From the NCBI GenBank assembly GCA_016187725.1, contig JACPJE010000241.1, forward strand, positions 8,992 through 48,627: a DNA stretch of 39,636 nt. The letters run 5' to 3'. Of this stretch, positions 3,332-39,636 are shown piece after piece. The stretch's first letter is position 1. The number at the start of each line of letters is the position of its first letter. Source of the DNA: Candidatus Latescibacterota bacterium. Lineage in GTDB: Bacteria; Latescibacterota; UBA2968; UBA8231. The notes under the pieces were generated by a model. That model worked only from the letters and a program-made list of their open reading frames with translations. It did no database searches and had not been told where the DNA came from. A program made the position numbers and the translations under genes.

Positions 3332-5425
3332 TCAAGCGGGGACGGCCTGGGAGCGGCGTTGCGGGGCGCGGGCCAGCCACAACTCCAAGAGCAGCAGCAG
3401 CAGGGCCAGGGCCAGGCACTCGCGCCACAGTTCGCGGCCGTAGCGCTTGCCCAGCACCAGGGAACGCAACTCGTCCTGGGGCTGGAAGAAGCGGGTGCGC
3501 CCAGGGCCGAAGAGCTGTTCTAGGCGCTGGCGGGGCACCGGGCTGAGATCGGCCTCGCGGGGATCGGGGTTGACGGCGAAGAGATCGACCAGTTGGCCCT
3601 CCCTCCACAGGCGCCACAGTCCCGCTTCTCCGGCGCGCGGGATCTGCCACCAGCAGCGGCCTGCCTGCGGTGCGGCCGAGATCCACAGCTTGCGGCCCGA
3701 GGGGGTTTCTGCCTGGAGGCGGTCGGCGGCGCTGGTGCCGGGCAGATAGCGCCGCAGGGTCTGGCCCACCAGGTAGGGCTGTTCCGGGTCGGCGGGCAGG
3801 CTCAGGTAGCGCACCAGGCGGTGCATCAGCGGGGCGAAGAGCCCCTTGAGGGGCAAGTCGTTCCACTCCAGGGAGAGGGGAGCGGCGAAGAGGACCACCC
3901 GGCCCTCTTCCTTCCAGCAGAGGATGGCGGCGGGCTGGCCGTCGGCAAAGTGGACGAGCGGAGCGCTTTCCTGGTCGCCCATGGCGGCGGATGCCAGGGA
4001 AAAGAAGGCGCCGAAGTGCGGCTGGTCCTCGGCCACCTGGGTGAAGAGTCCCTCGAAGAGCGGGTGGTAGGGCAGCTGCGAGTTCAGGCCCTGTCCGGTG
4101 CTCCGGCTCCCCGGCTGGCCGATGACCTGGGCCAGTCTCGCCGGTGTCAGGCCGGGCAGCAGGTGGCGGTTGAAGAAGTTCAGGTCGGCCTGGGGGGAGG
4201 GAAAGAGGACCAGCGCGCCCCCGCCGGCCACAAAATTCTGCACCAGGGCCGTCTGTTCCGGGGACAGATAATTCAGGTTACACAGCAGCAGCACCTGGAT
4301 CTGCTGCAGCAGGGCAGGCTCCAGGTCGGCGACTAGCCCGAAGCGCAGCGCCAGAGCCGGATCAGCCGCGGCGCTGGCGGCCAGGGCGCGCCGCGGATAA
4401 TAGGTGTCCTCGGGCTGATGCCCCAGGACCAGCACCTGAAAGGAGTCGGGCACGCAGAGGGTGAAGTAGCGGCGGTTGTCCAGGGGCAGGGCGTCGTCCT
4501 GGACCTCCACGTAGCCGCCGAGCAGGCCGGTTCGGCGCGGGGTCAGGGCAAAGTCGAACTGGAACTCTTCGCCTGGCCGCAGGTCTGCCTCCTGGTGGCG
4601 CACCCGCTCGCCGTCGAGGTACACATCCACCGCGGTCTGCGGCGCTGGCTGGGAGGCGGTGTTGGCCCCCCGGGCCCGGGCGCTCAGTTTCTTGCCCGGC
4701 GCCGCCAGCCACGAAGAGAAGCGGACTTCATCCACGTGGACATTGCCCCGTTCGCCCGTCCCCAGGTCGGCGATGTAGACCTGCGCCTGAGGCAGCCATT
4801 CGGCCTTGGGCGGGATCTGCTCCCAGTTGTGGCGGGCCAGATCGCTGAATATATAGATCTCCTGGCGCAGCTCTGGGTGGGCGGCGCAGAAGTCGGCGGC
4901 GGCCCGCAGGGCCGGTTCCAGGTCCGTGGCTTCCTGGGTGGGCGCCAGTTCCCCCAGCTGCACGGCCAGTTGGTCGCGCCCGGCGGGATCTCCTCCCAGG
5001 GGCCGGCTGGCAAAGGGGATGAACACCACCTCGTCGCGCCGGGAGAAAATCTCCAGCAGTTCCTGGGCCTGGCGGCGCAGCTGATCGAAGAGCGGGCCGC
5101 CTCGCTGGCGGTAGCCGGTGCTGTAGGAGCAGTCGAGCAGCACGGCGGCAACCACCGGCGCGGTGCTGCCCCCCCAGCCGGCTCCGGCCTGGTGGGCCGG
5201 CCGCGCAAAGGCCAGGGCGATCAGGGCGATGATCAGGGTGCGCAGCAGCAGGACCAGCCACTGGCGCAGGCGCAGGCGGCGCAGGCGGCTGTGGTGCAGG
5301 CGGCGCAGGAAGTCGAGGTTGCTGAAAGGCTGGGGCTGGGACTGGCCCCGGTGCAGCAGGTGGATGGCCAGCGGGATGAGCGCGGTGGCCAGGCCGATCA
5401 GCGCGATGGGGTTGAGGAATTGCAA
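3332..5425 (-). CDS. BatA/VWA-domain membrane protein
   Basis: This 697-residue protein begins with the BatA (aerotolerance) N-terminal signature: LNPIALIGLATALIPLAIHLLHR, then PFSNLDFLRR and a second TM (VLLLRTLIIALIALAFARP). A von Willebrand A fold follows, with the partial MIDAS D98-x-S100-x-S102 (LLDCSYS). Around residues 355-400 there is a GATase1-like segment (VLLLCNLNYLSPEQTALVQNFVAGGGALVLFP), and a C-terminal TM (ALALLLLLLELWLA) is present. The start is a TTG at 5425, only 6 bp after the EIIA stop, with GAGG just upstream. Such proteins commonly neighbour MoxR/DUF58 or Gld-type ABC genes. They are thought to have envelope or stress-related scaffold roles, but the molecular function is not established. 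Confidence 0.85.
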   Translation of the reverse strand: MQFLNPIALIGLATALIPLAIHLLHRGQSQPQPFSNLDFLRRLHHSRLRRLRLRQWLVLLLRTLIIALIALAFARPAHQAGAGWGGSTAPVVAAVLLDCSYSTGYRQRGGPLFDQLRRQAQELLEIFSRRDEVVFIPFASRPLGGDPAGRDQLAVQLGELAPTQEATDLEPALRAAADFCAAHPELRQEIYIFSDLARHNWEQIPPKAEWLPQAQVYIADLGTGERGNVHVDEVRFSSWLAAPGKKLSARARGANTASQPAPQTAVDVYLDGERVRHQEADLRPGEEFQFDFALTPRRTGLLGGYVEVQDDALPLDNRRYFTLCVPDSFQVLVLGHQPEDTYYPRRALAASAAADPALALRFGLVADLEPALLQQIQVLLLCNLNYLSPEQTALVQNFVAGGGALVLFPSPQADLNFFNRHLLPGLTPARLAQVIGQPGSRSTGQGLNSQLPYHPLFEGLFTQVAEDQPHFGAFFSLASAAMGDQESAPLVHFADGQPAAILCWKEEGRVVLFAAPLSLEWNDLPLKGLFAPLMHRLVRYLSLPADPEQPYLVGQTLRRYLPGTSAADRLQAETPSGRKLWISAAPQAGRCWWQIPRAGEAGLWRLWREGQLVDLFAVNPDPREADLSPVPRQRLEQLFGPGRTRFFQPQDELRSLVLGKRYGRELWRECLALALLLLLLELWLARAPQRRSQAVPA

Positions 5426-24092: not shown

Positions 24093-25553
24093 ATGTCGAA
24101 GGTCCAGGAAAAAATCTTGTTGTTGCTCAGCGACGTGGTCGCCATCAACCTGGCCTCGCTGATTTTCCTGTGGATGAAGTCCGTAGGCGGCGGTCTGCCT
24201 GGGGTGGTCGCCTACTGGCTGCGCACCCACCCGGCCAACACCCGGCCCGATTTCTTCTACATCCTCGACTACTACCTCTACGATGCACTGCCGGCCATCT
24301 GCCTGTGCTGGCTGCTGCTCTTCTTCTTCTTCGGTCTGTACCGGGACAGCCAGTCCAACTCCCGCCTCGACGAGGGGATCGAGGTCTTCAAGGTGATCAC
24401 CCTGGGGACTCTGCTCTTCTTCGTGGCTACCTTCGACCTGGAAAAACCCCTGGCCCTCACCCGGGCCCTGCTCTTCTCCTACTGGCTGGCGATGGTCGCC
24501 TTGGTGGGCGGCGGGCGCATCGGCCTGCGCAGCCTGCAGCGGGCCCTGCTGGTGCGGGGTATAGGCCGGCGCCACACCCTGATCGTGGGCAGCGACGCGC
24601 GGGGCCTGCGGCTCTTACAGGAGCTGCGCGCCTCGCCGGCTCAAGGTTACGAGGTGGTCGGCTTTGTGCGCGCCAGCGACGAGGAGAAGCGGAGCGCTGT
24701 GGGCGGGGTGCCGGTGGTGGGCGGAGTGGGCGAGCTGGCCGGGTTGATCGGGGCCCATCACGTGGAGGTGGTGCTCATCGCCCTGCAGTCCAACTCGCAC
24801 CAGGAGGTGCTCCAGATCGTCGAGGGGGCGGCGGGCCAGTCGGTATCTTTTGGCATTACCCCGGACCTGTACGACATCGTCGCCGGGCACGTGCGCACCC
24901 AGCAGATCTACGGCGCCCCGCTGATGGAGCTGCGCTCGGAGCTGATGCCCCCCTGGGAGCAGGGCATCAAGCGGCTGGTGGACGTGGCGGTGGCGATGGG
25001 GTTGTTGGCAGGCCTGGCGCCGCTGTGGATACTGGTGGCCCTGGCCATCAAGCTCGAATCGCGGGGTCCGGTCTTCTTCGGCCAGGAGCGGGTGGGCAAG
25101 GAGGGCAGGATCTTCACCATGTACAAGTTCCGCTCCATGGTGGTGGACGCCGAGGAGGGGACCGGGCCAGTGTGGGTGAAGGGGCGGGATCCGCGGGTGA
25201 CGCGGGTGGGCCGGGTGCTGCGCGCCCTGCACCTGGACGAACTGCCCCAGTGCCTCAACTTTCTCCAGGGCGAGATGAGCCTGGTGGGCCCGCGGCCCGA
25301 AAGGCCTTACTTCGTCGAGCAGTTCAAAAAGCAAATCCCTCTCTACATGCGCCGCTTCAACGTCAAGCCGGGCCTCTTGGGCTGGGCCCAGTCCAAGCAC
25401 GAGTTCGACATAGACGCCAAGGACCTGACGCGCATCGCGCGGGAGCGGCTCGAATACGACCTCTACTACATCGAGAACATGTCGCTGCGGCTGGACTTCA
25501 AGATCATGCTGCAGACCATCTGGTTCGTTCTGACCGGCAAGAGCACCAGGTGA
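24093..25553 (+). CDS. Polyprenyl glycosylphosphotransferase (WcaJ/WbaP-like, initiating sugar transferase)
   Basis: This 486-residue protein has an N-terminal membrane domain of four or five TMs, a central Rossmann-like CoA-binding-type domain (HTLIVGSDARGLRLLQEL, VVGFVRASDEE) and a C-terminal bacterial sugar transferase domain. The last holds KRLVDVAVAMGLLAGLAPLWILVALAIKL, GPVFFGQERVGKEGRIFTMYKFRSM, LDELPQCLNFLQGEMSLVGPRPE and KPGLLGWAQ. It loads the first sugar-1-phosphate onto undecaprenyl phosphate and so starts repeat-unit assembly. The linker contains the usual beta-rich stretch FGITPDLYDIV. It ends the polysaccharide cluster and is followed by the only long non-coding gap. Confidence 0.93.
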   Translation: MSKVQEKILLLLSDVVAINLASLIFLWMKSVGGGLPGVVAYWLRTHPANTRPDFFYILDYYLYDALPAICLCWLLLFFFFGLYRDSQSNSRLDEGIEVFKVITLGTLLFFVATFDLEKPLALTRALLFSYWLAMVALVGGGRIGLRSLQRALLVRGIGRRHTLIVGSDARGLRLLQELRASPAQGYEVVGFVRASDEEKRSAVGGVPVVGGVGELAGLIGAHHVEVVLIALQSNSHQEVLQIVEGAAGQSVSFGITPDLYDIVAGHVRTQQIYGAPLMELRSELMPPWEQGIKRLVDVAVAMGLLAGLAPLWILVALAIKLESRGPVFFGQERVGKEGRIFTMYKFRSMVVDAEEGTGPVWVKGRDPRVTRVGRVLRALHLDELPQCLNFLQGEMSLVGPRPERPYFVEQFKKQIPLYMRRFNVKPGLLGWAQSKHEFDIDAKDLTRIARERLEYDLYYIENMSLRLDFKIMLQTIWFVLTGKSTR

Positions 25554-25945
25554 TTTAGCGCGGACTACCTGCCCCGGGAAACACCTCCAAGGCATCCCCG
25601 TCCCTCCTGGTCATCTTCCCGCCGCTATTCCCCAAGAGGGTCTTGATTTTTCAAAAAAAGTTGAAGTTTTGTTTACGAATAAAAAAGGGAGGCGTAGATT
25701 ACGGGAAAAATAGGGGAGAATATGGATTTATTTGAAGGAACTCGGCAGAGCTATACCCATACCGAAGGGCAGGCTCCTGTACGCGTGAGACCACGCACAG
25801 CTATCATGCGGGCGCGAAGTGAGCGCCGATGAAGTTCACAGATAATCGGGGGATGTTGCTTGAGATCGGGATCGCCGGGTGCCAGTTCCCCAAGGCCACT
25901 CCTGGAAGCGCGCGATAGCCTGGCTGCCGCCAGACTGCTTCTGAC
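25554..25945. other. Intergenic gap with an A/T-rich core
   Basis: About 390 bases without a convincing gene. 25643-25735 is strikingly A/T rich against a GC-rich background, with A-runs and TTGATT/TTGAAG hexamers, but no clean -35/-10 pair. 25811-25827 holds GGCGC...GCGCC, a short hairpin. A 36-codon frame (25722-25832) with GGGGAG upstream is listed separately. The gap marks the boundary between polysaccharide genes and the nuclease block and may be an old insertion point. Confidence 0.5.
25722..25832 (+). CDS. Short frame of 36 codons, doubtful
   Basis: An ATG at 25722 is preceded by AGGGGAG three bases upstream within the A/T-rich core. It opens MDLFEGTRQSYTHTEG and ends RARSERR. I do not recognise it. 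It may be the head of a truncated gene or chance. Confidence 0.2.
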   Translation: MDLFEGTRQSYTHTEGQAPVRVRPRTAIMRARSERR

Positions 25946-26461
25946 ATGAGTGCTTCCATAGATTCCTTTGTGGCCATCGACTTTGAGACTGCCAACGAGA
26001 ATCCCGACAGCGCGTGTGCCCTGGCGCTGGTGCGCGTGGAGAATCAGCGGATCGTCAGAAAAGAGGTCTGCCTGATTCGACCTAGCAGCGCGAGGTTCAC
26101 CTTTTCAGGCATTCACGGTATCTCCTGGACGGACGTCCGAGATGAGCGACCTTTTGCTCAGGTTTGGGAGGATGTTCAAGCGATTCTCGGTGGGGTGAAG
26201 CACTTCGCAGCGCATAATGCCAGCTTCGACAAGCGCGTGTTGACGGCCTGTTGCCAACGAGCGAAGCTCTCCGTCCCACCCATTCCATTTGTCTGCACGG
26301 TGAAGGTCGCACGTGCTGTCTGGAACATCCGCCCCACGAAGCTGCCGGACGTGTGCCGCGCATTATCAATACGGCTCAAACACCACGATCCGGCTTCGGA
26401 CGCCGAAGCGTGCGCCAGAATCGTGATGAAGGCAGGTCAGGCAGGTTGGAGCTATGAATAG
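25946..26461 (+). CDS. DEDDh 3'-5' exonuclease (DnaQ-like)
   Basis: This 171-residue stand-alone exonuclease domain has DEDDh residues D12 and E14 (FVAIDFETA), D95 (FAAHNASFDKRVL) and H147/D152 (HHDPASDAEACARIV). It resembles the short DnaQ/RNase T-like proteins of many genomes that act on DNA or RNA 3' ends, possibly in repair. No polymerase, BRCT or GIY-YIG domain is attached. No clear ribosome-binding site precedes the ATG. Codon usage is less GC-biased than in the polysaccharide genes, consistent with a different history. It faces the convergent RraA-like gene 32 bp away. Confidence 0.85.
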   Translation: MSASIDSFVAIDFETANENPDSACALALVRVENQRIVRKEVCLIRPSSARFTFSGIHGISWTDVRDERPFAQVWEDVQAILGGVKHFAAHNASFDKRVLTACCQRAKLSVPPIPFVCTVKVARAVWNIRPTKLPDVCRALSIRLKHHDPASDAEACARIVMKAGQAGWSYE

Positions 26462-26493
26462 TGCGCAAGAAAGCATAGCTTCGCGAGGTAGCT

Positions 26494-27165
26494 TTAGTCT
26501 CCCCGCTGCTTCCTCATCTTCTCCACACTGAAATCAGCTGCCCGGTAGGAGGCGAAGATGGCTTCCTCCTCGGTGCGGACTTGGTGGGCCAGGCGCAGCA
26601 CCTCGGCGGCGTGTTCGGCAGGGATCTGGACGCAGCCGTCCTGGTCGGCCAGCAGCAGGTCGCCGGGTCGCACGCGCAGCTGGCCCACGGTGAGGGGGTG
26701 GTTGAAGCGGGTCAGGTGGAAGGCGCCGTGGCCGGGCACCGTGCCCCAGGCGAAGACGGGCAGGCCCACCCGGCGGATGCCGGCCAGGTCGCGCACGGTG
26801 CCGTCCACCAGCACGCCGGTCACTCCCAGTCGTTGGTGCACGGTGGCCATGCCGTCGCCGAAGCTGGCGCCCCGTCCCGGGCGCGAATCCACGTCCTTGA
26901 GCACCGCGATCAGCGGCCCCGGAGTCCCTTCGAGGAGGGCGTAGTAGTCGAGCCAGTCGAGGGCCGGGGAATCCGGGTCGTTGGTGGTGATCTCGGCGGT
27001 GATTGCGTAGCCGATCACTGCGCCCAGCTCGGGCAGCAGGCAGCGGATGCTGTGGTCGGTGTAGTTTTCGCCGGGTGCCCCGCGCAGGCGGGTCACTGCG
27101 TTGAAGAGGGTGGGGGAGTCGAATTCCCTCAAGTGGTCCAGGATTTCCTGACTGATGCGCCGCAT
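26494..27165 (-). CDS. RraA-like family protein
   Basis: This 223-residue RraA/MenG-like fold protein has the characteristic GDGMATVHQRLGVTGVLVDGTVRD (residues 103-126, including the R-D pair), AGIRRVGLPVFAWG and VRPGDLLLADQDGCVQIPAEHA. Family members are either class II 4-hydroxy-4-methyl-2-oxoglutarate/oxaloacetate aldolases or RNase E inhibitors; the sequence does not decide. GAAAGGAG six bases upstream fixes the ATG at 27165. It follows addA by 139 bp on the same strand, with no obvious functional link to it. Confidence 0.85.
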   Translation of the reverse strand: MRRISQEILDHLREFDSPTLFNAVTRLRGAPGENYTDHSIRCLLPELGAVIGYAITAEITTNDPDSPALDWLDYYALLEGTPGPLIAVLKDVDSRPGRGASFGDGMATVHQRLGVTGVLVDGTVRDLAGIRRVGLPVFAWGTVPGHGAFHLTRFNHPLTVGQLRVRPGDLLLADQDGCVQIPAEHAAEVLRLAHQVRTEEEAIFASYRAADFSVEKMRKQRGD

Positions 27166-27304
27166 AGGGTGCTCCTTTCTCGTAGCGCAGCCGTGGAGTT
27201 CCGCCAGAGGGCTGTTGAAGCGAGGAGGTATCTCAATTCAACTGCCGGCACGTTGCCCTAAAGCTGGTACAGAGCGATAGCTATTCGCGTTATTCTTGCC
27301 CTCT

Positions 27305-30300
27305 TTACCTGCCACACAAAGCGCGATACCCACACCGGATGCAGTGCAGCACCTCATCGGTCTTGGCAAAAACCTGCGCCCCTAAGGCCTTGTCCCACGA
27401 GGCCAGAACCCCGGACAGATGGGTCTCTGCTGCTGCCACTGCTGGAAGTGTAGGCCGCCACACCACCTCTTCACCGGAGCGCAGGAAGATGAACACCACC
27501 TCCGCCACCTCTCCTCCGGGCAGCCGGCCCGCCGCCAAGCCATAGGCTTCCTGCTGCAGTTTGTAGTTGGTCTCCACCCGGTCAGCGGCAGGGCCCTCGA
27601 CCCGGTCGGTCTTGTAGTCCAGGACATGCCAGCCGCCGGCTGCATCTTGGTAGAGCAGATCGAAACGCCCGACCAGGCACCTCCCATCCCCAAGCTGCAG
27701 CACAAAGGGGACTTCGCTCCGGCGCTCGGCGCTGGTGCGCACCTCCTCCCACCTGGGGGTAGCCAGCCAGCCTTCGAGGAGTTTCACCGCCAGCTGCTCC
27801 AGGTCTGGTCCGATCCGGGCGCCCGCCAAACCCTGCTGGCGCACCGCTGCCTCTACGAGGCCGGCCAGGTCTCCAGGACCAGCGTCCACCGGCAGCAGGT
27901 GCATGACCTGGTGGACGACCTGCCCCACAGAGAGGGCCGGAGTGCTGTCCGTATGCTCCTGGTCTTCCTGCGAGAGTTCTGAAGCGCCCGATTCCTCGGG
28001 CAGCCGGAGCAGGCGGCTCAGCTGGTAGCGCCGCGGGCAAACCGCAAACAGCTCTAAGTCCGTCACCGCAACCCGCCTCGCCGGACTTCCGGGATCAGGG
28101 GGGACCAGCTGATTCTTCCAGCCCTCTGGGGCGGATGTTGCTTCTGTCGCCATCCTCCGGATACTGGCGATCAATTCTGGGTAGGCCAGGCCCCGCTCCG
28201 CAACCAGGGCAGGGGGCATTTCAGGCGGCAACTCGACCCGCACAGCTATTTCCCCGTTGTCCGTGGGGTAGCTGAACTGTGCGCCAATGGGGCAGATCCC
28301 ACCGATCCACTGCAACCAGGATTTTCCGTCGGCGAGCGACGGAGCAAACTTGTCCGGGTTATAGGCGCTGCTCAGGATCAGCCGGTCCCGCGCCCGGGTT
28401 GCGGCGACGTAAAACACCCGCTGCTGCTCGGCCAGCTCCAGGTGAGTCAGCCTTTCCCGCACGCGCTGGTAGTCTGCCCCGGCCTCCATCTTCAACTGCT
28501 CGTCCCGCAGCTTCAGGCCCATGCCGACCGCAGGGTCCCACAACAGGCTGTCGCCACCTGGCAACTGAAACTGCCGGTTCAGATCCGCGACGGCCACCAC
28601 GGGCCATTCGAGCCCCTTGGACTGATGGACACTCATCAGCTTGACAGTATCCCCGGACTCAAGTTCCAGGGTGGCCTCGGCCTCGCGCGGGGTAAAAGCC
28701 AGGCGCTCTTCGAGATGCACCACAAAACTGTGAAGACTAGCGGCCGGCCCACTGTCGAATTGCCGGGCCAGGTCCACCAGCTTGCGCAGGTTGCCCAATG
28801 CCTGCTGTCCATCCGGCCGGGTGGCGAGCACGGCCCGGTACCAGGTCCTCTGGAGCAACTCGGCGATGAGCCCGGCGATGGGGAGTTGATCCCGCCGGGT
28901 GCGCAGGGACTCGAACCAATCCAGAAAAACGTCGAGCCGGCTCCCTTCCTCCGGGTCGATCTTCTGCCTGAACCTGTTCGAATGGAGATCTTCCCAGGCA
29001 TCCTCGGCCGCTAGCCAGAACAACACCGCGTCCGAGCAGCCGACCCAGGGGGCGCGCAGGACCGCGGCCAGCGACAAGCGGTCGTGGGGCTGGAGCAGGA
29101 GCCGGAGGACATTGAGTACATCCAACACCTCCTGTCGCGCAAAGAACCCCGACCCCGCCACGGTATAAAATGGAATCCCGTTGCGGCGCAGGGCTCGCTC
29201 GTAGATCCCCACATCGGTCATCGCCCGAAAGAGGATCGCCAGGTCGCCCGGACAGACGGCACGGTATACCTCAGCATGGTCTTCGAGACGCTTCCCGACC
29301 ACTTGCTCCCCACCCTCGAGCAACTGCCGGAATCGCCGTGCCAGACCATCGGCCTCCTCGGCCCTGGCTTCCATCACGCCGCCCTCATTGGGCACAAAAA
29401 GGCACTCCACTGCCGGCGCCGGCGAATCGTCAGGTCGCACCGATTCCACGGGCGCATAGTGGATCTGCCCGGCCTCAGACAGGCCCGGGACGAACACCTG
29501 CGCGAAGGTGTGGTTAAAAAATCCCACCAGGCGGGCCTGAGAGCGGAAACACCGGGTCAGGCGCAGGCTCAGCCCTTTCCGGCCCCGAATGGTCTGCTCT
29601 ATGCGGACAAACTGGTCCACGGCCGCTCCCCGGAACCGGTAGATACTCTGCTGGGGATCCCCCACGACAAACAGGCGCGGCGGGTGGTCCACCTCGTTCT
29701 GCTCAAATCCGCACAACAGGCGCACCAGCTCGGCCTGCACTCCATCCACATCCTGGAATTCATCGATGTGGAGATAGCGGAACTGCCGCTGGTAGTGGTT
29801 GCGGACCTCAACCCGGTCCCGCAGCAGATCCCGCGCCCGGCCCAGCAGCCCGTCGAAATCCACCCGTCCCTGCGCATCCAGGGTCTCCCGCCACCTGGCC
29901 AGCAGGTGATCCGCTGCCGCCAGCAGGGCCACCCGGGCGGTGGCGTGCTCCGGCGCTTCTTCTGGATCAGCCGCGGCCCGGGCATAGTAGTCGAGCAGGG
30001 CCTGGGCACTCAGGGGCTTGCCGACCAGGTCCAGCAACATCTCGTGGGCATAGCGCAGGTCCACACTGGCCAGGAGCGGGGCCAGCAGTCCCTCCCCCTG
30101 CGGCGCGGCGGTCAGCATCTCATCGATCCACGATTCAAAGAGGCGGCGGGAAAGCGCATCCCGGCCGGGCTCATCCAGGACGCCAAACCCCGGGTCTATC
30201 CCTGCCTCCACCGCGTGTTCCCGCAGCAGGGTACTGCAGAAACTGTGGATGGTCCCGATGTACGCGTCTCCCAGATCGTACTGCCACCGTCCCCTGGGCT

Positions 30301-30526
30301 CGCGCTGCTGGCGCAGGGCCTGGGACAGCCGGGTCTTCAGTTCGGCGGCGGCCTTCTCGGTAAAGGTGATGGCCGCCACTTGGTGCAGCTCGGCATGGCC
30401 TCCAGTCAAGAGGTGGATCAGGCGGCTGATCAGCACCGAGGTCTTGCCGCTGCCGGCGCCGGCGGCGAGGCAGATATCGCGTTCGGTGTCTTCGATGGCG
30501 GCCTTCCGGACCTCCTGGTCAGACAT
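27305..30526 (-). CDS. addA: AddA-like UvrD-family helicase-nuclease
   Basis: This SF1A helicase of about 1,073 residues has Walker A GAGSGKT (23-29), DEFQD, VGDPQQSIYRFRGA, LTRCFRSQARLV, LMSVHQSKGLEWPVV and VFYVAATRARDRLI in order. A PD-(D/E)XK nuclease with HVLDYKTD completes the C-terminus. Four cysteines (FAVCPRR and a terminal C-x2-C-x5-C) resemble the iron-sulfur set of AddB/Cas4 nucleases. I chose the ATG at 30526 (MSDQEV), which has AAGGAG upstream and an 8-bp overlap with addB. The open frame extends further but only reads addB out of phase. With AddB it would resect double-strand breaks for recombination. Confidence 0.92.
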   Translation of the reverse strand: MSDQEVRKAAIEDTERDICLAAGAGSGKTSVLISRLIHLLTGGHAELHQVAAITFTEKAAAELKTRLSQALRQQREPRGRWQYDLGDAYIGTIHSFCSTLLREHAVEAGIDPGFGVLDEPGRDALSRRLFESWIDEMLTAAPQGEGLLAPLLASVDLRYAHEMLLDLVGKPLSAQALLDYYARAAADPEEAPEHATARVALLAAADHLLARWRETLDAQGRVDFDGLLGRARDLLRDRVEVRNHYQRQFRYLHIDEFQDVDGVQAELVRLLCGFEQNEVDHPPRLFVVGDPQQSIYRFRGAAVDQFVRIEQTIRGRKGLSLRLTRCFRSQARLVGFFNHTFAQVFVPGLSEAGQIHYAPVESVRPDDSPAPAVECLFVPNEGGVMEARAEEADGLARRFRQLLEGGEQVVGKRLEDHAEVYRAVCPGDLAILFRAMTDVGIYERALRRNGIPFYTVAGSGFFARQEVLDVLNVLRLLLQPHDRLSLAAVLRAPWVGCSDAVLFWLAAEDAWEDLHSNRFRQKIDPEEGSRLDVFLDWFESLRTRRDQLPIAGLIAELLQRTWYRAVLATRPDGQQALGNLRKLVDLARQFDSGPAASLHSFVVHLEERLAFTPREAEATLELESGDTVKLMSVHQSKGLEWPVVAVADLNRQFQLPGGDSLLWDPAVGMGLKLRDEQLKMEAGADYQRVRERLTHLELAEQQRVFYVAATRARDRLILSSAYNPDKFAPSLADGKSWLQWIGGICPIGAQFSYPTDNGEIAVRVELPPEMPPALVAERGLAYPELIASIRRMATEATSAPEGWKNQLVPPDPGSPARRVAVTDLELFAVCPRRYQLSRLLRLPEESGASELSQEDQEHTDSTPALSVGQVVHQVMHLLPVDAGPGDLAGLVEAAVRQQGLAGARIGPDLEQLAVKLLEGWLATPRWEEVRTSAERRSEVPFVLQLGDGRCLVGRFDLLYQDAAGGWHVLDYKTDRVEGPAADRVETNYKLQQEAYGLAAGRLPGGEVAEVVFIFLRSGEEVVWRPTLPAVAAAETHLSGVLASWDKALGAQVFAKTDEVLHCIRCGYRALCGR

Positions 30527-33500
30527 CGCCCTCTCCTTGGGTCCGGGACCGGGCAAAGCGCTGGCTGTCCTCCTGCCTACCCCCGAGCAGGCGGGTTTCG
30601 TCCTGGCGGCACAGGGCCTGGAAATCGCAATAGCGACAGGGCTCCTTCTGGAGGTCAAAGGAAACTGGGAGCAGGGGAAAGTGGCCGGCGGCGATGTCCG
30701 CTGCGTACGCGGTCAAGAAGCGCAACAGCTGGCTCTTGAGATCTGGCCAGTTGAGCTTCTGCCCTCTGGCTGGTTTCGCTCCACACGCGAGGCCCCCGCT
30801 CTGGGTGAGGCTTCCCTTGGCACCCGGGGCATCGGCGAGCTTCAGATAGAAGCCCGCCTCCGGATGGAGCCCCAACAGCTCCTCGGTGGCGAGCAGATAG
30901 ACAAAGAGTTGAAAGCTGGTGCCTATGGCCACGGCCGAGTAGACCGGCACGGTAGCCCCCGTCTTGTAGTCGATGACCGTGGCCTGACCCTCCGCGGTGG
31001 CGTCCACCCGGTCGATAATACCGCGGGCGCAGATCTCCACTCCTCCGGCAGACAAGACCAGGGGCTCATCCGTCGAAGCCGGGTCATTGCCCCGGCGCTC
31101 GCTCATGCCAAAGGAAAATTCCAGGTGTGCCGGGGCCAGGCCGGGATTCTTCTTGAAGTACTCGATCTCACTGTGGACAAACCACCCCAGCCGGACCATC
31201 AGGCGCTCCTGCTCATAGACCCAGGCACCGGGATGACCCGCGCGTCCCTCGCGCTGCAGGCGCTGGCATTCCTCCTCGGCAATGTGCCTGATAGCAGCGA
31301 GCGCCTCTGCTTCTTCAGTTGCCAGCACTGGGCGGGCTCGCCTGGTCGCACTATCCCACCGCTCGCGGTAAAACCTCTCCAGGATCCTGTGGATCAGCTG
31401 TCCCCGATCCAGGGGCGAAATTTCCACCCGGTCGGTGTCGGGGCCTTCCAATCCCAGAATCTGGCCGGCAAAGAACTGCCAGGGACATTTGGCGTAGCTG
31501 TCCAGTTTAGTCGGGCTGAGCGGGCGTTTCGCCCACGCCTGGAGCAGTCGAGCCACCACCCCTTTCTGATTGCTCAGGTCTCCGTCAAAGGCGCCAAAGC
31601 GGGGATCGTGCCAACGGGTCACTTCTGCGGCCAATCCGTTGGGTTGTCCCCGGTCCAGGAGGCCTGCGAGCAGCGCCGCACCATCCGGGCTCAACACTTT
31701 CTTGTGGTACAGCTGGTCGAGGGTCCACGCGGTGGCCTCTTCGGTATGCCAGAGATCCGCTGCATGGCGCGGCAACACGTCGGCAGGGGTGTATTTGGCA
31801 GCTAGCTGAAGGCCCGGGGCATTTTCGACCAGGGCCTGCGCCTCTGCCACAAAGGGAGACACCACGGTGGGGCGTCCACCCGCGTCCGTCTCCGTATAGA
31901 CCAGGTATACCTGCTCGCGCCCGGCTTCGAGTGCCGACACGAACAACAGCCGCTCCTTGGCCACCCGCTCAGCCCGCGCCTGCAGGCGTGTACCAGGGCC
32001 GGCGGCCATTACCAGGGCCTCCCGCTCTTCTTCCTTGAGGAAAGGCCCGGGGCGGACCGGAGCAGGAAACTCCTTTTCCGCTAGTCCCGCAATCAGCGCG
32101 ATCCGGTAGGATAACCCTCTCACGGCGAGGGGATCGTGGATCGCCACGGCATCGGTGCGCAGCGGCGCGTCCTGAAGCACCTCCTCCTGGAGCAACAGAT
32201 CCAGCAGGGCCAGGAACTCAGCGAAAGACACCTCGGGCTTCCAGGTGCTGCCCAGAACGCCCAGGCAGTTGTCCAACTCTGCCAGGGCCCGCCAATCTCG
32301 GGCCAACCCCTGCGGGTCCGCCAGCAGGGATTTTTCGGTAAATGCAGGGACGTGGACCAGGGCCTGCGCCAGCTCAACTAGGTGGGTTGCATAGACAGAC
32401 AGGGTGGCGCGGCTGGGTAGGTCGGCTACCCGCGCCAACACCCCGACCTCTGTTGCCGCCGCCCGGAGATCCGCGACTCCTTGCCCAAGCACTGCCGGAG
32501 CGTCGGTCTCTTCGGAGGCCTGTTCCATCTTGTGCGTCAGGCCCTCAGCCATCCGGCTGAGGTGGGCCGAAAGGGCCTCGGGCGGGGTGTGGGAGGGCAG
32601 GATTGAGACCAGTCGCTCCAGGGCGGCAGGGCCCACCTGCACCCGGCAATACGCCGACCTGAGGCAGTCCAACAGGGTGTCTTTGGCGAAGCCGTTGGCC
32701 TTCAATTCCACGACACTCCGCAGCAGGGTCAGCACCCGCAACGCTCTCCAGGGGGTGCCGGTGGGCAGATGGAATGGAATGCCGAACTGGGGGAAGATCT
32801 CCTGGATCAGCTGTCGGTACGCGGGCAGCGCGCGGAAAATGACCGCACATTCCCCCCAGCTCAACCCAGGGTCCTGCTGGCGCAGCTGGCGCAGCTGGCG
32901 GGCGATGGCTTCGACCATCTGGGCCGGCCCGGAAGCCGTCAGCACCTGGAGGGAGTCATCAGCAGCGGTCCTGGCCGGTGCAGCGGCAAACACCTGCTTC
33001 CTGATGCCGGACAGGGTCGAGGGGCCGGTTGGCAAAGCCGGCAGGGTCACCGGGGAAGAACCAGTGAGTTCCTGCAAGCACTTCAGGCTCCATTCGGTAG
33101 AGGAAAAGGCCGCGCCGCGCTCCGGGTCAAAGGGGACGACAAACAGGATCTCAGGGTGGGTCTCGACCAAGGCCTGGATCACTTCGAGGCGCGCTGCGGT
33201 AAAGTCGTCGAACCCGTAGAGGATCAGGGGCTGGAGCTTGGGTATGGCCTTCGAGGCCCGGATGGCGTCTGCTGCGGCGTGCATTTCCTGCACCCCGTCT
33301 GTCCATCCGTGGTCGCGCAACATTTGCCCATAGCTGGCGTAGAGGCTGCCCAGTTCCTGCAGTTTCGGGGAGGTCCGGCTCCTGCCGATGGCGGCCAGGG
33401 CTTCCGGGGCAATACCCGCCTCCTGAAGTTCCTGGATCAGGGCATCCGCCGCGGCGACAAACCCCGGAAAATCGCGCACCCTGCCCATGGGCCCATTTTC

Positions 33501-33815
33501 CGGGATCTCCTGCCGAACCAACCGGGCAATCGACCACAGGCGCAGCGCTTCGGGGATGCGGACGGGGCGTTCGTTCGGGGCAGACTCCTCAAGGACCTCC
33601 CGGGTCAGGCCGGACAGGGTAGTGAACACCCGCCCGAAAAAGCCCTCGACCCCCGAGCTGAGCAAGTGGTCCTCCAAATGCCGGACCAAGGTGCCGGCAG
33701 GAACTACCACCCGGGCTTGGGTGAGCGGTGCGTGGCGGATGGGAGCGGTGAGCAGATCCAAGAGCCAGGCCTCGGCTGAGACCCAGTCAGGTGAGAGGAG
33801 GATTTGGTGGGGCAT
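30519..33815 (-). CDS. addB: AddB-like nuclease subunit of the double-strand-break resection complex
   Basis: This protein of about 1,098 residues has an inactivated helicase-like N-terminus (VVVPAGTLVRHLEDHLL, no Walker A) and LYGFDDFTAARLEVIQAL. The C-terminal PD-(D/E)XK nuclease comprises LDSYAKCPWQFFAGQIL, RGQLIHRILERFY, TVIDYKTG and CRYCDFQALC. The cysteines before and after the nuclease (C, then C-x2-C-x5-C) match the AddB iron-sulfur cluster. I preferred the ATG at 33815 (MPHQILL), with GAGGAG nine bases upstream, over the GTG at 33851. It overlaps addA by 8 bp. In B. subtilis addAB is followed by sbcDC; here the sbcDC locus lies upstream in the same direction. Confidence 0.9.
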   Translation of the reverse strand: MPHQILLSPDWVSAEAWLLDLLTAPIRHAPLTQARVVVPAGTLVRHLEDHLLSSGVEGFFGRVFTTLSGLTREVLEESAPNERPVRIPEALRLWSIARLVRQEIPENGPMGRVRDFPGFVAAADALIQELQEAGIAPEALAAIGRSRTSPKLQELGSLYASYGQMLRDHGWTDGVQEMHAAADAIRASKAIPKLQPLILYGFDDFTAARLEVIQALVETHPEILFVVPFDPERGAAFSSTEWSLKCLQELTGSSPVTLPALPTGPSTLSGIRKQVFAAAPARTAADDSLQVLTASGPAQMVEAIARQLRQLRQQDPGLSWGECAVIFRALPAYRQLIQEIFPQFGIPFHLPTGTPWRALRVLTLLRSVVELKANGFAKDTLLDCLRSAYCRVQVGPAALERLVSILPSHTPPEALSAHLSRMAEGLTHKMEQASEETDAPAVLGQGVADLRAAATEVGVLARVADLPSRATLSVYATHLVELAQALVHVPAFTEKSLLADPQGLARDWRALAELDNCLGVLGSTWKPEVSFAEFLALLDLLLQEEVLQDAPLRTDAVAIHDPLAVRGLSYRIALIAGLAEKEFPAPVRPGPFLKEEEREALVMAAGPGTRLQARAERVAKERLLFVSALEAGREQVYLVYTETDAGGRPTVVSPFVAEAQALVENAPGLQLAAKYTPADVLPRHAADLWHTEEATAWTLDQLYHKKVLSPDGAALLAGLLDRGQPNGLAAEVTRWHDPRFGAFDGDLSNQKGVVARLLQAWAKRPLSPTKLDSYAKCPWQFFAGQILGLEGPDTDRVEISPLDRGQLIHRILERFYRERWDSATRRARPVLATEEAEALAAIRHIAEEECQRLQREGRAGHPGAWVYEQERLMVRLGWFVHSEIEYFKKNPGLAPAHLEFSFGMSERRGNDPASTDEPLVLSAGGVEICARGIIDRVDATAEGQATVIDYKTGATVPVYSAVAIGTSFQLFVYLLATEELLGLHPEAGFYLKLADAPGAKGSLTQSGGLACGAKPARGQKLNWPDLKSQLLRFLTAYAADIAAGHFPLLPVSFDLQKEPCRYCDFQALCRQDETRLLGGRQEDSQRFARSRTQGEGDV

Positions 33816-33878
33816 GAGTAGAGACTCCTCAGGCTTCCGGGTGCGGGTCACAGTATACCCGGCCCACTCTGGTGGGTA

Positions 33879-34652
33879 TCACCGCCGGTTGTGCATAACA
33901 GCTTCGAGGTCAAAAAAGCTCGCCCCTTTTAACCCACGGTAACGCTCGGGATGACACGTCAGGACGAGGATCTGAAGCCGCTGGGCGGCCTCAAGCTGCT
34001 GTTCAAGTTGCTGGGCCGTGGCAAGAGGGTCATCCTGATAGGAACGCAATTTACCCTCGATCTCTGCCAGGCGCGCCCTGGCCGCCTCCCACTCCAAGGC
34101 AAGTTGGCGCAATTCCGTTTCGCGGTCCTGAGCCTGCTTGCCGTCGTTCCCGTATTCAGCAAGACTCTCCTCAAGGGTGGCCATGCGGTCGCGGGCATCC
34201 TTGAGTCTCTCGGCAGATGCTTCCTCCTGGCCCCGGGCAGTGGAAAGGGCACTCTGCACCTTATCCCATTCGGCTTCGGTGCCCTCAACTTCGACGATGA
34301 AGGCCCTTTTTACGTCGCCGGCCCTTGATCTCAGCGCCTGCGGATCAGGAGGGGATTCCCTCCACTCGGGGTGGGCTTCAAGGATCTTGCTCAGTGCTCC
34401 CTCGTGGATACTGCGCTCCTGAACGAGGCCTTCCAAGGTCTTGCCCGCCAGAAAAATCTCCAACTGAGTTTCTGCCTCGGCGATAACGGCCTTCAATTCA
34501 GTGGCTTTTTCTGCCAGGGCTTCCAGCTCTTCCTGGTCCTCTGATCCGAACGGCGTCGTCAGCTTTGCCAGCTTTTCCTCGGCCTTGGCCCACGCACTGC
34601 GATGTTCCTCGACTGAACCGGTTGGGCCCGAGGCGCGCAAACGGGCAACACT
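33879..34652 (-). pseudogene. SbcC-like C-terminal remnant (frameshifted from upstream part)
   Basis: This continues the coiled coil of the preceding SbcD/SbcC frame after a one-base shift at 34647-34653. It reads VARLRASGPTGSVEEHRSAW, then long heptad-like E/A/L-rich helices, and ends LQILVLTCHPERYRGLKG, the switch-region end of an SMC/SbcC ATPase. The signature motif, Walker B and D-loop that should lie between the coiled coil and that ending are absent, with an abrupt junction near 33980 (LEAAQ joined to RLQILVL). An open frame reaches 34703, but its first residues are out of phase with the family. Confidence 0.7.
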
Positions 34653-36639
34653 CAGGAATAACCACGACAATTTCGGGTGACCCCTGAACCCTGATCGGCA
34701 CATCCTTCAACGCTGGCTGCGGACCGGCCTCCTCGCCAGCGACGATATCTAACTGGCCATCCTGATCCAGGGTTACCTCCAGAATAATGAGCGATGCCTC
34801 CAGGCGCACCTTTGCCTCATCGCGGGCCTTCAACGCCTTGCGGATTGCGCGCAACGCCTTGGCGTCCGGCGCAACCAGTTTGCTCCGGTCCATCATTTTC
34901 TCCCCCAACAGCTGTTGGGTGGCTTGGATCCGCGCGATGATGGCGTCCAGCTCAACTCGTGCCTTTGTCCCTTCGGCAAACTGCCGCGCCTCCTCAGCCG
35001 AATCCTCAGCCCCTTCCACATCCTTCCGGCCCTTGCGGGCGTCCTCCAAGGCGATCCTTGTCTTCTCGACCTCTTTGGCGCGTTCCTGTACCTCCCGGGC
35101 CTTCAGCGGAACCTCGGCCTCCATCGCTGCCAGGGTATTCTTCGCCTCGGCATATGCCTTCTCCGTTTTCTGGATAAGAGTGATCTGCTGTTTTAGTTGA
35201 TCGTGCTGCGCTTCGGCTGTTTTTGCCCGTTCCGAACGGCGGTCCTTCTCGGCCAGGAGCGTCCGGTACGCCTCAGCGCGCTGACGCGTATCCTCTAATG
35301 CCTTGGTGATCTCCTGGGCATCGAGCCGGGATTGTTCCCGACGGGCTCGCAGGTCCTCTACCCTCCGGGAGGCATCGTCAAAGGCCTGGTAATCGCTTAA
35401 CGCAGCGCGAAATGCCTCGCGTGCCTCTTCGAGTTCCCTTTCAAGGCCAGTCAGGCTCGGCGCGTCCTTTCCAGTCCTTGGTTTCCCCGTGGGAGTGTAG
35501 AACGCCAAATAACGCTCTTCGATCTTCCCTGCAATCGGATCAGTCCCTGAACCGGACACCTGAGGCCCCAGCATCGAACGAATGTTCGCCACCAAATCCT
35601 CTGAGAGCGAAGAGAAGCTGAGGCTCCCCTGAGGAGCCCACAAGACCTGGGCAAAGCCCCAGTTCCGGAACTGGGCAAAACCCTTGCCTGGGGGATTTTG
35701 TGTCAACAGGTCCCGGGCCTTGGTATCGGCGCTTGTGCCTTCAGCCAATGGTCGGTAACGTCCATCCTCCTTCCGCTCCAGCAAGGCGCTCTGATGGACG
35801 AGAAACTGCTTGGTGACGCTGATGGCCGGATCTCCCATGGCTTCGATGTCCTCACGTACACGCACCAGGTCACCGCGCTCCCGCACCTCCTTTTCTATCG
35901 AACTCCATATCAGGCCCCCGGTGCGGACGGGTGTAATTGTCGGTGGGGCGCCAGGGCTGACGAACTCGACAATCAGGGCGTTCCCACTGTCCCTTTCCCC
36001 AAACTTGGTCGTCTCATGCGTGCCGGAATACGCCATGGCCGGTGCGTCGTTTGGGCCGGGGTACATGGCGTACGAATGCCAATGCCCCAACGCGAGGTAG
36101 TCCAGCCCTGACCTTTGGGCAGCATCGCGGGGAATCGGGTAGTCTGGTTCGTCCTGGCGAATTCCCTCCACTGTCCCGTGCGCCAGCCCAATTCTTATGC
36201 CGCCCTGGCGTTCCGGTGGAATCCATGCCGTGGGGTCCGCCCCCGAATGTTTTTCCAGCGCCGGGCAGGGAAACAAGACCGTCCCACTCAGCTGAACCGG
36301 CACCGCCTCACGCAGCACACGGACATTCGCCGAGGACTTCCATACGGGGTGTTCCCAAACAGACCCAGGTGTCAGGGGGTCGTGGTTGCCGGGGATGATA
36401 AAGACCGGTCCGTTGAACCTGCCCAGGATATCGGCCACCTTCTGCACCAACACCCGGTCAACCGCGTTGTCCTCAAACACGTCGCCGGTGACAACAACAA
36501 ATTCCGCGCCATGCTTCCGGGCCGCGTCGACGACCCGTTTGCCCGCGGCGATCCGCTCCTCCCGGACGCGAGCGCCGGCCTCGCCCACTGACTGCGCCTT
36601 CATGCCAATCTGCCAATCCGCGGTGTGAAGGAACTTCAT
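34498..36639 (-). pseudogene. SbcD nuclease joined in frame to an SbcC-like coiled-coil segment lacking Walker A
   Basis: Residues 1 to about 274 are an SbcD/Mre11-type metallophosphoesterase: HTADWQ (D8), GDVFED (D53), GNHD (84-87), AHG (H154) and GHWH (185-188), so the nuclease motifs are intact. At about residue 275 (35815) the sequence changes without a stop into the middle of an SbcC/SMC ATPase. TKQFLVHQSALLER and FAQVLWAPQGSLSFSSL come first, then a long coiled coil. The SbcD C-terminal cap and the whole SbcC N-terminal lobe with Walker A are missing. The frame then leaves the SbcC phase near 34650, and the residues after VVVIPE are out of frame. The ATG at 36639 has GAGAGG and forms ATGA with the upstream stop. 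Either this is a decayed pair or a collapsed assembly. Confidence 0.7.
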
Positions 36640-36827
36640 TGTGACCTCTCTTTGCGTGCATGTGTTCTTCTCGCAAAATCTTCCTGAATCGATCTTGCTA
36701 ATGTCAGCCGGGTGCCGGTGCCCATGCGCTCGGCCAGCAGCGGGTCGCTATGCACGAAGTCACGGACTGCACGCCGCTCCTCCGCGAGTTCCCGTTGCAC
36801 GGAGCTGAGAAAGATGCGCCGCGTCAT
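36636..36827 (-). pseudogene. DUF4062/AlbA-HATPase-type protein reduced to about 63 codons
   Basis: It starts MTRRIFLSSVQRELAEERRA...DPLL, the exact N-terminus of DUF4062 proteins. It then jumps to ERMGTGT, a motif from the far C-terminal HATPase_c_4 region of the DUF4062-AlbA_2 (RecG-like/ATP-binding) family. After that it ends with the tail LTLARSIQEDFARRT. Full-length relatives run to several hundred residues, so most of the protein is gone without a frame break. The ATG at 36827 has GGAGGGCGGG upstream; an in-frame GTG at 36833 forms GTGA with the stop of the overlapping frame. Its stop overlaps the SbcD start. Confidence 0.6.
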
Positions 36828-36829
36828 AA

Positions 36830-36934
36830 TCACCCGCCCTCCTCGAGTACGACGAGCCAGGTCACTACCTCAAAGTCGTGGATGTCGTAGTTGTTATACC
36901 GCTTCCCCACCGTATCCTTGGCCAGACTGCTCAT
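36830..36934 (-). pseudogene. 34-codon overlapping frame; probable C-terminal fragment of a lost gene
   Basis: From an ATG at 36934, in another phase, it overlaps the last 41 bases of the nucleotidyltransferase gene. It continues past that stop as KRYNNYDIHDFEVVTWLVV and ends LEEGG just at the start of the DUF4062 remnant. The composition looks like a genuine protein end. The nucleotidyltransferase tail SGLPNEQSGQGYGGEAV, read from the same bases, looks unnatural. I infer that a deletion joined the nucleotidyltransferase end to the tail of another gene. Confidence 0.35.
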
Positions 36935-37532
36935 TGGGAAGCCCAGAAGAAAGCCCGGCGTCCTCAAGAGCACGTTGGAGAAGGGGAGATAGCTGTAAGG
37001 TCGAGGCCCACTGCTTCATATACTCCTGGTTTAGCGCTGTTGTTTGAACTCTTAGGACACCCAAAACATCATTCCACTGACGTTCGGAGACCTGTCCCCC
37101 CAGCTTATACCAGGACAACTTGTGCAAAATGATATCCTCGGCAGAGGCAAATCTGAACTCTCTCCCCTCATGCTCCAATCCCAAAGTTCTCTCCTGTGCC
37201 CGGGCAAAAGCACCCTGATCATAAGGAGTGGATTTGAGCATGAAAACGTCCAGCTTTATCATCGTATCCAGGTGGATCACATTGAAAGAAGACTGGTGGT
37301 CAACGGCCTCTCGAACCATGTCTGCATCAATATAAAACCCCCCCTGCAACTGTTGCACCAAAGGCTGAATGTGTTCCGCATGCAGATCCGCAACCAAATC
37401 CACATCCAAGGTAGAACGGGGGAGTCCATGAATCGAACTTGCTACTGAACCACCGATGAAATACCCGATTCCCAGCCCTTCGAGCGCTTCCACAAAAGCG
37501 TGAGTGGCGATCAATATATCTGGAGCATTCAT
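36894..37532 (-). CDS. Nucleotidyltransferase (MNT/AbiEii-like fold)
   Basis: This 212-residue protein has the minimal nucleotidyltransferase core: FIGGSVASSIHGLPRSTLDVDLV, that is G28-S29 and the metal-binding pair D43-x-D45. IKLDVFMLKSTPYD supplies a third acidic position, and FASAEDIILHKLSWYKLGG is the usual helical follow-on. I chose the ATG at 37532 (MNAPDIL), with GGAG six bases upstream and an ATGA overlap with the 86-residue gene. Base composition is clearly poorer in GC than the neighbours, suggesting transfer. The last 17 residues look like out-of-phase reading. Relatives include AbiEii-type toxins and proteins of unknown role; no activity is assigned. Confidence 0.8.
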   Translation of the reverse strand: MNAPDILIATHAFVEALEGLGIGYFIGGSVASSIHGLPRSTLDVDLVADLHAEHIQPLVQQLQGGFYIDADMVREAVDHQSSFNVIHLDTMIKLDVFMLKSTPYDQGAFARAQERTLGLEHEGREFRFASAEDIILHKLSWYKLGGQVSERQWNDVLGVLRVQTTALNQEYMKQWASTLQLSPLLQRALEDAGLSSGLPNEQSGQGYGGEAV

Positions 37533-37789
37533 GAGGTTCTCCTGCTTTCCCGGTAAACCCCTACTCGCCGGGCAAGGTCTTCTCCGTAGCAAAGAGCAAC
37601 CAGCCTCAGGGAAAGCTCTTGGGGAGACCAATGAGGGTGGCGGCTCTGCAACCCAGTGCGAGACATTTCGATGGTGGTCTGACTCAACGAGCGTGTCAGC
37701 GCCATGCGTCGGGCTGGACCAGCTTGAAACAAAAGCTGAACGTGAATGCGCTCTACTTCTGGATGGGTATCGATAGAAAGGGGTTTCAT
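37529..37789 (-). CDS. 86-residue partner of the nucleotidyltransferase, uncharacterised
   Basis: It starts MKPLSIDTHPEVERIHVQLL, continues AGPARRMALTRSLSQTTIEM and has RHPHWSPQELSLRLVALCYGEDLARRV near the end. It is all-helical in appearance, without TM or metal motifs. I recall similar small 'DTHPE...R.HP...E...R' proteins beside nucleotidyltransferases in many phyla, but cannot verify this here. It is locked between its neighbours by ATGA overlaps at both ends (heparinase-like stop at 37786, nucleotidyltransferase start at 37532). The tight coupling suggests a two-gene module, possibly toxin-antitoxin-like; that is inference. Confidence 0.65.
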   Translation of the reverse strand: MKPLSIDTHPEVERIHVQLLFQAGPARRMALTRSLSQTTIEMSRTGLQSRHPHWSPQELSLRLVALCYGEDLARRVGVYRESRRTS

Positions 37790-39636
37790 CGGCACAGCGG
37801 CTCGAAGAGCACTTCGTCGCCGACCACGCAATCCACCGCGCCCACCCAGTCTCCCGGCTGCAGGTTTTCCAACGGCCGGGCCAACTCCACCACCGTGTGA
37901 TCCGCGTCGGGATTGCAGGCCTCGGTGATCTGGGCCCAGTCCCCGTCCGTTTCGCGCTGGAGGCGGGTGGCGTGCAGGTTGCCGGTGCGGGTCATGATAT
38001 GGTAGTCCAGCTCGACCCGCCAGCCCTGGACAAGGGCCACCCGCGCCCGTCCGATCAGGGTGGTGACGTCGAGGCGCAGGTGATGGCGGCCGGGCCCTAA
38101 TTCCCGCACTTCCTCGACCAGATAGTTGTGACCCCGCCCCTGAGGGTTGATCCGCACTCTGTCTCCTGTGGAAATCCCCTGCAGTCCTTCCACTTCGACG
38201 GTGCAGGCTCCCCGGTCGATGGCGGTGATCTTGCCCCGCTGCACCGGGGCGACAGCCCTGAGAGTCGGGCCCTGGCTCTGGAAGGAGGTGACACCCACCG
38301 CGCTGATCTTTCCATCGACCACCAGTGCTAGGCTGCCTTGCAGGAGAGTGCCATCGGCAAAGCGCACAGTATTGCCAGACTCCGGGTTCCAGTACAGTTC
38401 CACGGTGCGGCCGCCGGTGCCCACCAGTTCCACGCCGCTGGCCTCCTCGCGGTCGGCGGCGATGGGGCGCGCCGCCTCCAGGGTGGCCGGACCCAGGCGC
38501 GGCTCGAAGACCAGGTCCACGCAGGTGGTCTGCCCTGGCTGGGGGGGGTGTTTCCACAGCAGGGTGCGGAAGAGGTAGGTGGACTCCTCGGGTTTGCCCA
38601 TGGTGGCGGTGGCCCGGGCGCTCATCAGCTGGGTGCCTGGAGTGGCGCGCAGTTGGTGGAGATCGAGCCAGGCGTCGGCCCGGCGGCGGCAGGCCCAGGT
38701 CCCTTTCCAGGTGAGCCGCTCCTCCAGGCGCACCACCTCGTCCATCCAGGCCAGGCCGGCGTGATCGGGATGGGCCAGGCCTTCCTGCTGGCCGCGCTTT
38801 CCCCGGGGGTCAGCCACCGTTCCCCCGACTTGCTCCCCGGCCAGATCGGCGGTGAACTGCTCCGCCTCCAGTCCTCTGCAGACACGCCAGTGCTCGCTGC
38901 CTCCCCGGACCCGGGCCAGGTCCACCAAGGCCACACCTGTCCCGGTGGTTTCCACCAGGGCCAGGAGCCGGCGGAACTTCACGCCCGGGCGGTACCACTT
39001 CTTTCCATCCCAGGCCCAGCGCTCGGCCTCCAGCTCCAGGACCTGTACCCCTTCGATGAAGAGGGTGCGCACCAGCCGGCCCCGGCCGGCGATACGGCCG
39101 GCATTCAATCCGGGCGCCACACCCCACACCGTGTTGTGGGTGGCCCAGTGGGCCTCCCAGTTCTCGATGCTGCCCCAGGACTGGGGATAGCCCAGGTCGC
39201 TGAGGAAGGGCTGGTCAAAGGCAAAGAGCTGGATATCGAGCAGATCCATGTGCCGGTGGCCAGTGGCGTCGCCGTAGGCAATGCCCGCGGCGGCCCGCTC
39301 CGGGGTCTCGCCGGTGCGCAGGATGGCGATACCACCCCCGTCGTGGATGGTGCTGCCCAACTGCAGCGGCTGCCGCTGGGCGGCGGCGTCCCTGATCCGG
39401 ACCACCACCGGGTCGGCGGTGAAGGCAGCGGCCTGCTCCAGGGTCTCGGGGGGCAGGGGATGGTGGTAGGCGTCGGCCCGCAGGGGCTCCTGCACGGGTG
39501 AGCTGCCGTCGCCGAACTGGAAGGGCACCTTGCCCAGCAGGGTGACTTCGTACGGGGCGCGGACCACCCGGGCAGCGCGCGGATCGGCCACCAGGGAGGG
39601 AAAGCGGGATTCGGGATACGCCTGCGGATGGAGCTG
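37786..39636 (-). CDS. Heparinase II/III-like protein (5' end beyond window)
   Basis: The frame is open through the right edge, so the N-terminus (normally an alpha-toroid domain) is missing and 616 codons remain. The catalytic beta-sandwich start is recognisable: STIHDGGGIAILR, YGDATGHRHMDLLDIQLFAFDQPFLSDLGYP and WATHNTVWGV. This is the heparinase II/III pattern of G.H.H.D...L...G...L.D.G and H.T. Such enzymes are polysaccharide lyases acting on uronic-acid glycans. A role in degrading or remodelling an acidic polysaccharide is likely, but the substrate is unknown. A GTG at 39591 is an internal possible start only. Its stop overlaps the 86-residue gene. Confidence 0.75.
   Translation of the reverse strand, partial: QLHPQAYPESRFPSLVADPRAARVVRAPYEVTLLGKVPFQFGDGSSPVQEPLRADAYHHPLPPETLEQAAAFTADPVVVRIRDAAAQRQPLQLGSTIHDGGGIAILRTGETPERAAAGIAYGDATGHRHMDLLDIQLFAFDQPFLSDLGYPQSWGSIENWEAHWATHNTVWGVAPGLNAGRIAGRGRLVRTLFIEGVQVLELEAERWAWDGKKWYRPGVKFRRLLALVETTGTGVALVDLARVRGGSEHWRVCRGLEAEQFTADLAGEQVGGTVADPRGKRGQQEGLAHPDHAGLAWMDEVVRLEERLTWKGTWACRRRADAWLDLHQLRATPGTQLMSARATATMGKPEESTYLFRTLLWKHPPQPGQTTCVDLVFEPRLGPATLEAARPIAADREEASGVELVGTGGRTVELYWNPESGNTVRFADGTLLQGSLALVVDGKISAVGVTSFQSQGPTLRAVAPVQRGKITAIDRGACTVEVEGLQGISTGDRVRINPQGRGHNYLVEEVRELGPGRHHLRLDVTTLIGRARVALVQGWRVELDYHIMTRTGNLHATRLQRETDGDWAQITEACNPDADHTVVELARPLENLQPGDWVGAVDCVVGDEVLFEPLCR

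Follow-up and report, generated by a model that had tools for sequence, protein, structure and literature searches.

The window, that is, the whole stretch of 39,636 nucleotides that was analysed (G000:C103:8992-48627), belongs to a draft genome that totals 5.56 Mb over 292 contigs, with 89.2% completeness and 5.4% contamination. Read along the minus strand, the locus holds an 86-aa ORF, a nucleotidyltransferase, a gene tail, a DUF4062 stub, an SbcD part fused to SbcC, the rest of SbcC, AddB and AddA. Five junctions (J1 to J5) and one frameshift were mapped among the following features.

27,166-37,790, no strand assigned: genomic island of ~10.6 kb, missing at the same site in three congeners
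37,529-37,789, minus strand: 86-aa partner ORF of the nucleotidyltransferase, overlapping its start
36,951-37,532, minus strand: nucleotidyltransferase core, about 194 residues, 37-51% identical to class or phylum relatives
36,945-36,962, minus strand: junction J1, where nucleotidyltransferase homologues stop (query residues 188-197)
36,828-36,950, minus strand: C-terminal tail of a lost gene (...KRYNNYDIHDFEVVTWLVVLEEGG), an open frame with its stop just before the DUF4062 start
36,735-36,827, minus strand: DUF4062 N-terminus, 31 residues (Pfam PF13271 positions 1-29, E 2e-4, under the cut-off)
~36,729-36,737, minus strand: junction J2, an in-frame join of DUF4062 residue 31 to ERMGTGT, a C-terminal motif of the family
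36,711-36,731, minus strand: DUF4062 C-terminal shard (ERMGTGT) of 21 nt between J2 and J3, an exact match to the DUF4062 proteins of loci L125-L128
~36,705-36,713, minus strand: junction J3, from the 21-nt shard to the 45% GC leader of sbcD
36,640-36,708, minus strand: probable original non-coding sbcD leader, 45% GC
35,827-36,639, minus strand: SbcD phosphoesterase domain, residues 1-271 (Pfam Metallophos, 8e-12; 72% identity to locus L029)
35,815-35,832, minus strand: junction J4, an in-frame SbcD-SbcC fusion lacking the SbcD C-terminus and the SbcC N-terminus (Walker A)
34,654-35,817, minus strand: SbcC middle part, 398 residues gap-free against L029
34,645-34,660, minus strand: +1 frameshift, with one extra base at ~34,653, no residues lost, not in a homopolymer
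33,993-34,652, minus strand: SbcC coiled-coil part past the frameshift, gap-free by blastp to L029 ORF residues 508-743
33,981-33,992, minus strand: junction J5, an in-frame loss of 519 bp
33,879-33,992, minus strand: last ~38 codons of SbcC (LTCHPERYRGL...), with tail residues 238-269 matching L029 SbcC-ORF 913-944 at 87.5%
30,519-33,815, minus strand: AddB, intact, ATG at 33,815 (Pfam ADDB_N and PDDEXK_1)
27,305-30,658, minus strand: AddA, intact (Pfam UvrD-helicase, UvrD_C and PDDEXK_1); these are ORF limits, and the true start possibly lies inside

Since homologues of window positions 37,793-39,636 and 26,487-27,128 adjoin in three congeners (G004, G003 and G002), with a spacer of less than 100 bp, this empty-site comparison identified the 27.17-37.79 kb segment as an island absent at that site. 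No integrase was noticed among its ORFs. The island may be composite, because the nucleotidyltransferase pair has a GC content of 50-55% versus 65-70% in its surroundings. With their overlapping start and stop, the two ORFs of this pair (36,951-37,789) are possibly toxin-antitoxin-like; the 86-aa ORF had no Pfam or NCBIfam match. Contamination of the contig was ruled out, as both flanks are collinear with congeners: about 32 kb aligned to G004 at 86% identity with no gap larger than 17 bp, and addBA aligned to G003 over 6.5 kb with no gap larger than 6 bp. Erosion is limited to the ~3 kb between the nucleotidyltransferase and addB (33.98-36.96 kb). On the other side of an RraA-like gene (26,494-27,165), positions 25,552-26,486 also differ from G004, which appears to hold a MazF-like toxin-antitoxin pair at the corresponding spot (L120, ~3,838-4,396); the RraA-like gene thus seems placed between two variable spots.

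Past J1, the nucleotidyltransferase frame continues into foreign sequence, and the tail that follows had no relative in the loci, the plasmids or 195 genomes; J1 is a join of two different genes, an assignment resting on this gene tail without a recognised relative. The DUF4062 stub is 57-64% identical to intact DUF4062 proteins, in which the ERMGTGT motif sits ~330 residues further along. In the SbcD part, the phosphoesterase domain is complete (PF00149 positions 1-191 of 191). Motif I of SbcD/Mre11 proteins usually has a His; in this SbcD branch (36,600-36,639) it has a Gln (ADWQIGM), which is no decay mutation, since the closest relatives, such as L029, have Gln too. At J4, SbcD stops at residue ~271 and SbcC resumes roughly 90 residues into the protein, with 533-590 bp gone in comparison with 15 intact relatives. 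About 220 SbcC residues then run gap-free between the frameshift and J5, where the gap was exactly 519 bp in all 13 intact relatives measured, corresponding to 173 SbcC codons that include the signature and Walker B motifs. The blastp matches flanking J5 share only 4 codons, an overlap of at most 12 nt. Direct repeats were considered as the origin of J5; the joint may contain a short overlap around GAGGC, but no enrichment of such a repeat was seen in relatives. All three ATPase motifs of SbcC (Walker A, signature and Walker B) are missing in the window, and the remnant does not qualify as a functional SbcCD.

In a scan of the named genomes, the SbcD part had relatives at 66 loci, of which L029 (Syntrophaceae; 72% identical) was the best. 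Nearly all loci with room for it carry a full-length SbcC with Walker A, many of them with the TCHPERY C-terminal motif, and the Bryobacterales locus L061 shows full-length frames in the matching order sbcD-sbcC-addB-addA; the window therefore departs from the family norm. The missing pieces of SbcD, SbcC and DUF4062 are all held by intact relatives. These relatives share the SbcD phosphoesterase domain and the SbcC/Rad50-like ATPase (L029, for example) with known SbcCD and Mre11-Rad50, but they score under the NCBIfam cut-offs, which marks the window-type SbcCD as a divergent branch; in the window itself, the ATPase motifs are deleted. The SbcC remnant was not found in 60 relatives, nor was any relative of the remnant present in plasmid DNA or viral contigs, and G003 has addBA without an sbcDC pair of the island type. 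The absence of the SbcC part from the 60 relatives and from beside the G003 addBA indicates that the island SbcC is dispensable. Moreover, another contig of the same genome (C127) carries a second, canonical SbcD (a 434-aa frame above the NCBI cut-off) beside an AAA_23 SbcC-like ORF, so that the island sbcDC pair is probably redundant.

AddA has its helicase and nuclease domains and AddB its nuclease domain, complete as in known AddAB, with scores under the NCBIfam equivalog cut-offs. Compared with G003, AddA shows 77.5% amino acid identity (dN 0.135, dS 0.64) and AddB 74% (dN 0.168, dS 0.77), and the resulting dN/dS of about 0.21 for both indicates purifying selection. The addB start lies about 64 nt past the stop of the remnant and has its own plausible ribosome site. 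Unlike known AddAB, the genes here are on a variable island, and the G003 copy lies on a different contig in another context, beside divergent helicase-like ORFs (L117, 1-1,180), which suggests that addBA changes loci within the genus.

Reading frame could be judged at three joins only, as J1 joins different genes and J3 enters non-coding DNA. All three within-unit joins (J2, J4 and J5) are in frame, for which the probability by chance is 1/27. This frame-keeping may be chance or may come from selection against polar effects on addBA; taken at face value, the three joins hint at selection for ongoing translation ahead of addBA. In the surviving parts, 58 of 59 and 24 of 25 invariant panel residues are kept (82 of 84 in total), similar to intact members, and none of the ~900 codons is a nonsense codon, which, as a rough estimate, caps neutral divergence at about 3% per site. 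Together, the kept invariant residues and the absence of nonsense codons indicate that the decay is young. Five deletions without a nonsense codon represent a high deletion-to-substitution ratio, which would fit young pseudogenes that are removed mainly by deletion, but also one burst of deletions or an artefact. The preliminary description of this locus, which had reported at least five deletion junctions and a frameshift within about 3 kb between intact flanking cores, thus agrees with the comparison with intact relatives: five junctions and one single-base change were found, the AddA and AddB domains are complete and the nucleotidyltransferase core extends as far as in its relatives. Its wording of mostly in-frame joins holds for the three that can be judged and does not extend to J1 and J3, while the serial, collinear, mostly frame-keeping erosion that it depicted is what the locus displays.

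We consider it probable that these remnants reflect a real and recent pseudogenisation, driven by deletions, of dispensable island cargo. An operon-like block (the lost gene, DUF4062, sbcD, sbcC, addB and addA) would have arrived beside the nucleotidyltransferase pair; addBA would have been kept by selection, while the sbcDC-type pair, like the genes upstream of it, would have been dispensable owing to the other canonical SbcCD. Their internal pieces would then have been lost in several illegitimate deletions, independent of one another and relying on very short homology or none, and one single-base insertion would have been added to the deletions. We infer that the junctions are present in the organism, that the pieces were lost after the block had been acquired, that each deletion was an event of its own and that selection had been relaxed by redundancy. 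Against this reading, a near relative with an intact copy is missing and junction homology is not directly readable, and relatives show no enrichment of the J5 repeats.

The second-ranked explanation, which we regard as unlikely, is an assembly artefact, in which the true genome would have full-length genes and the contig would have been pieced together from fragments where coverage was poor; a stitched consensus had also been envisaged in the preliminary description. The assembly is indeed a draft (292 contigs, 89% complete, 5.4% contamination), several junctions are crowded in one small region, and the remnants are free of invariant-residue erosion and nonsense codons. De Bruijn stitching, however, requires that every join carry a repeat k-1 bases long, and repeats of this length were absent at J5 and at J2/J3, with bounds taken from protein alignments rather than parent DNA; the overlaps at J1 and J4 are bounded less tightly than that at J5. 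As the ~21-nt shard between J2 and J3 is below the usual final k-mers and the J5 overlap does not exceed ~12 nt, k-mer stitching is improbable at these joins. Stitching is further disfavoured by the frameshift, which lies outside a homopolymer, by the collinearity and single orientation of all pieces and by the clean state of addBA and of 32 kb of flank; in addition, no second copy of the island-type SbcC middle or SbcD exists elsewhere in the assembly.

It is very doubtful that the remnant still works as a truncated SbcD nuclease joined to the SbcC coiled coil, with its frame under selection. The in-frame state of every testable join and the complete phosphoesterase domain with its 58 of 59 invariant residues would agree with such a product, but both halves of the SbcC ATPase are gone (Walker A on one side, signature and Walker B on the other), the coiled coil is broken by the frameshift, a probability of 1/27 is weak, and recent decay explains the residue conservation equally well. 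We attach a similarly small probability to repeated frame-preserving deletion in which selection would have favoured a shortened SbcD-SbcC fusion, or the act of translating through it, in support of the downstream addBA; if true, the operon would have been trimmed stepwise while remaining readable. A dedicated or locus-specific deletion process is the least credible explanation, for although five junctions fall in ~3 kb and no gap larger than 17 bp occurs elsewhere in the alignable ~40 kb, the junctions lack a repeat family, inverted repeat or mobile element, no Ku was found in the draft genome, and relaxed selection on redundant cargo yields the same clustering, which for this reason was rejected as proof of a special process by itself.

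The specific deletion process raised in the preliminary description accordingly finds no support, the affected genes being redundant island cargo in an otherwise clean contig, and neither does its suggested link to the DNA-end functions of SbcCD and AddAB, as the genome has an intact AddAB and another canonical SbcCD. Two further candidates were set aside: end joining by Ku, for which the search of a draft genome found no Ku, with a control positive in only 1 of 14 genomes, and an anti-phage role, for which PADLOC gave no specific match, AddA and SbcC matching generic helicase and ATPase models only.

Deletion-led gene decay has precedents. Young pseudogenes of Salmonella are described as disappearing mainly through deletions, at a rate above the neutral expectation (Kuo and Ochman, PMC2916853), and they share recent inactivation and deletion-led loss with the present remnants; unlike them, the window shows several deletions side by side in an operon-like block, the three testable ones in frame. 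In symbionts of vesicomyid clams, remnants of uvrB, uvrC and uvrD accumulated several internal deletions after pseudogenisation (PMC5310779), likewise serial small deletions in DNA-repair genes, but in reduced genomes and with stop codons in the remnants, whereas here they lie on an island of a GC-rich 5.6 Mb genome. The pattern suggests gene decay of an ordinary kind and recent date, with an unusual abundance of deletions, rather than a new deletion machine. On this reading of recent decay, the locus would offer a snapshot of the pruning of an imported repair operon, with the helicase-nuclease kept and the redundant partner nuclease deleted before point mutations build up. Apparent misassemblies may also be judged without reads with the help of relatives, of an empty site in congeners and of a shard below k-mer length. 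Among the relatives, locus L059 (11,113-13,831) carries an SbcC relative split over overlapping frames of 514 and 424 aa, possibly a second decaying copy.
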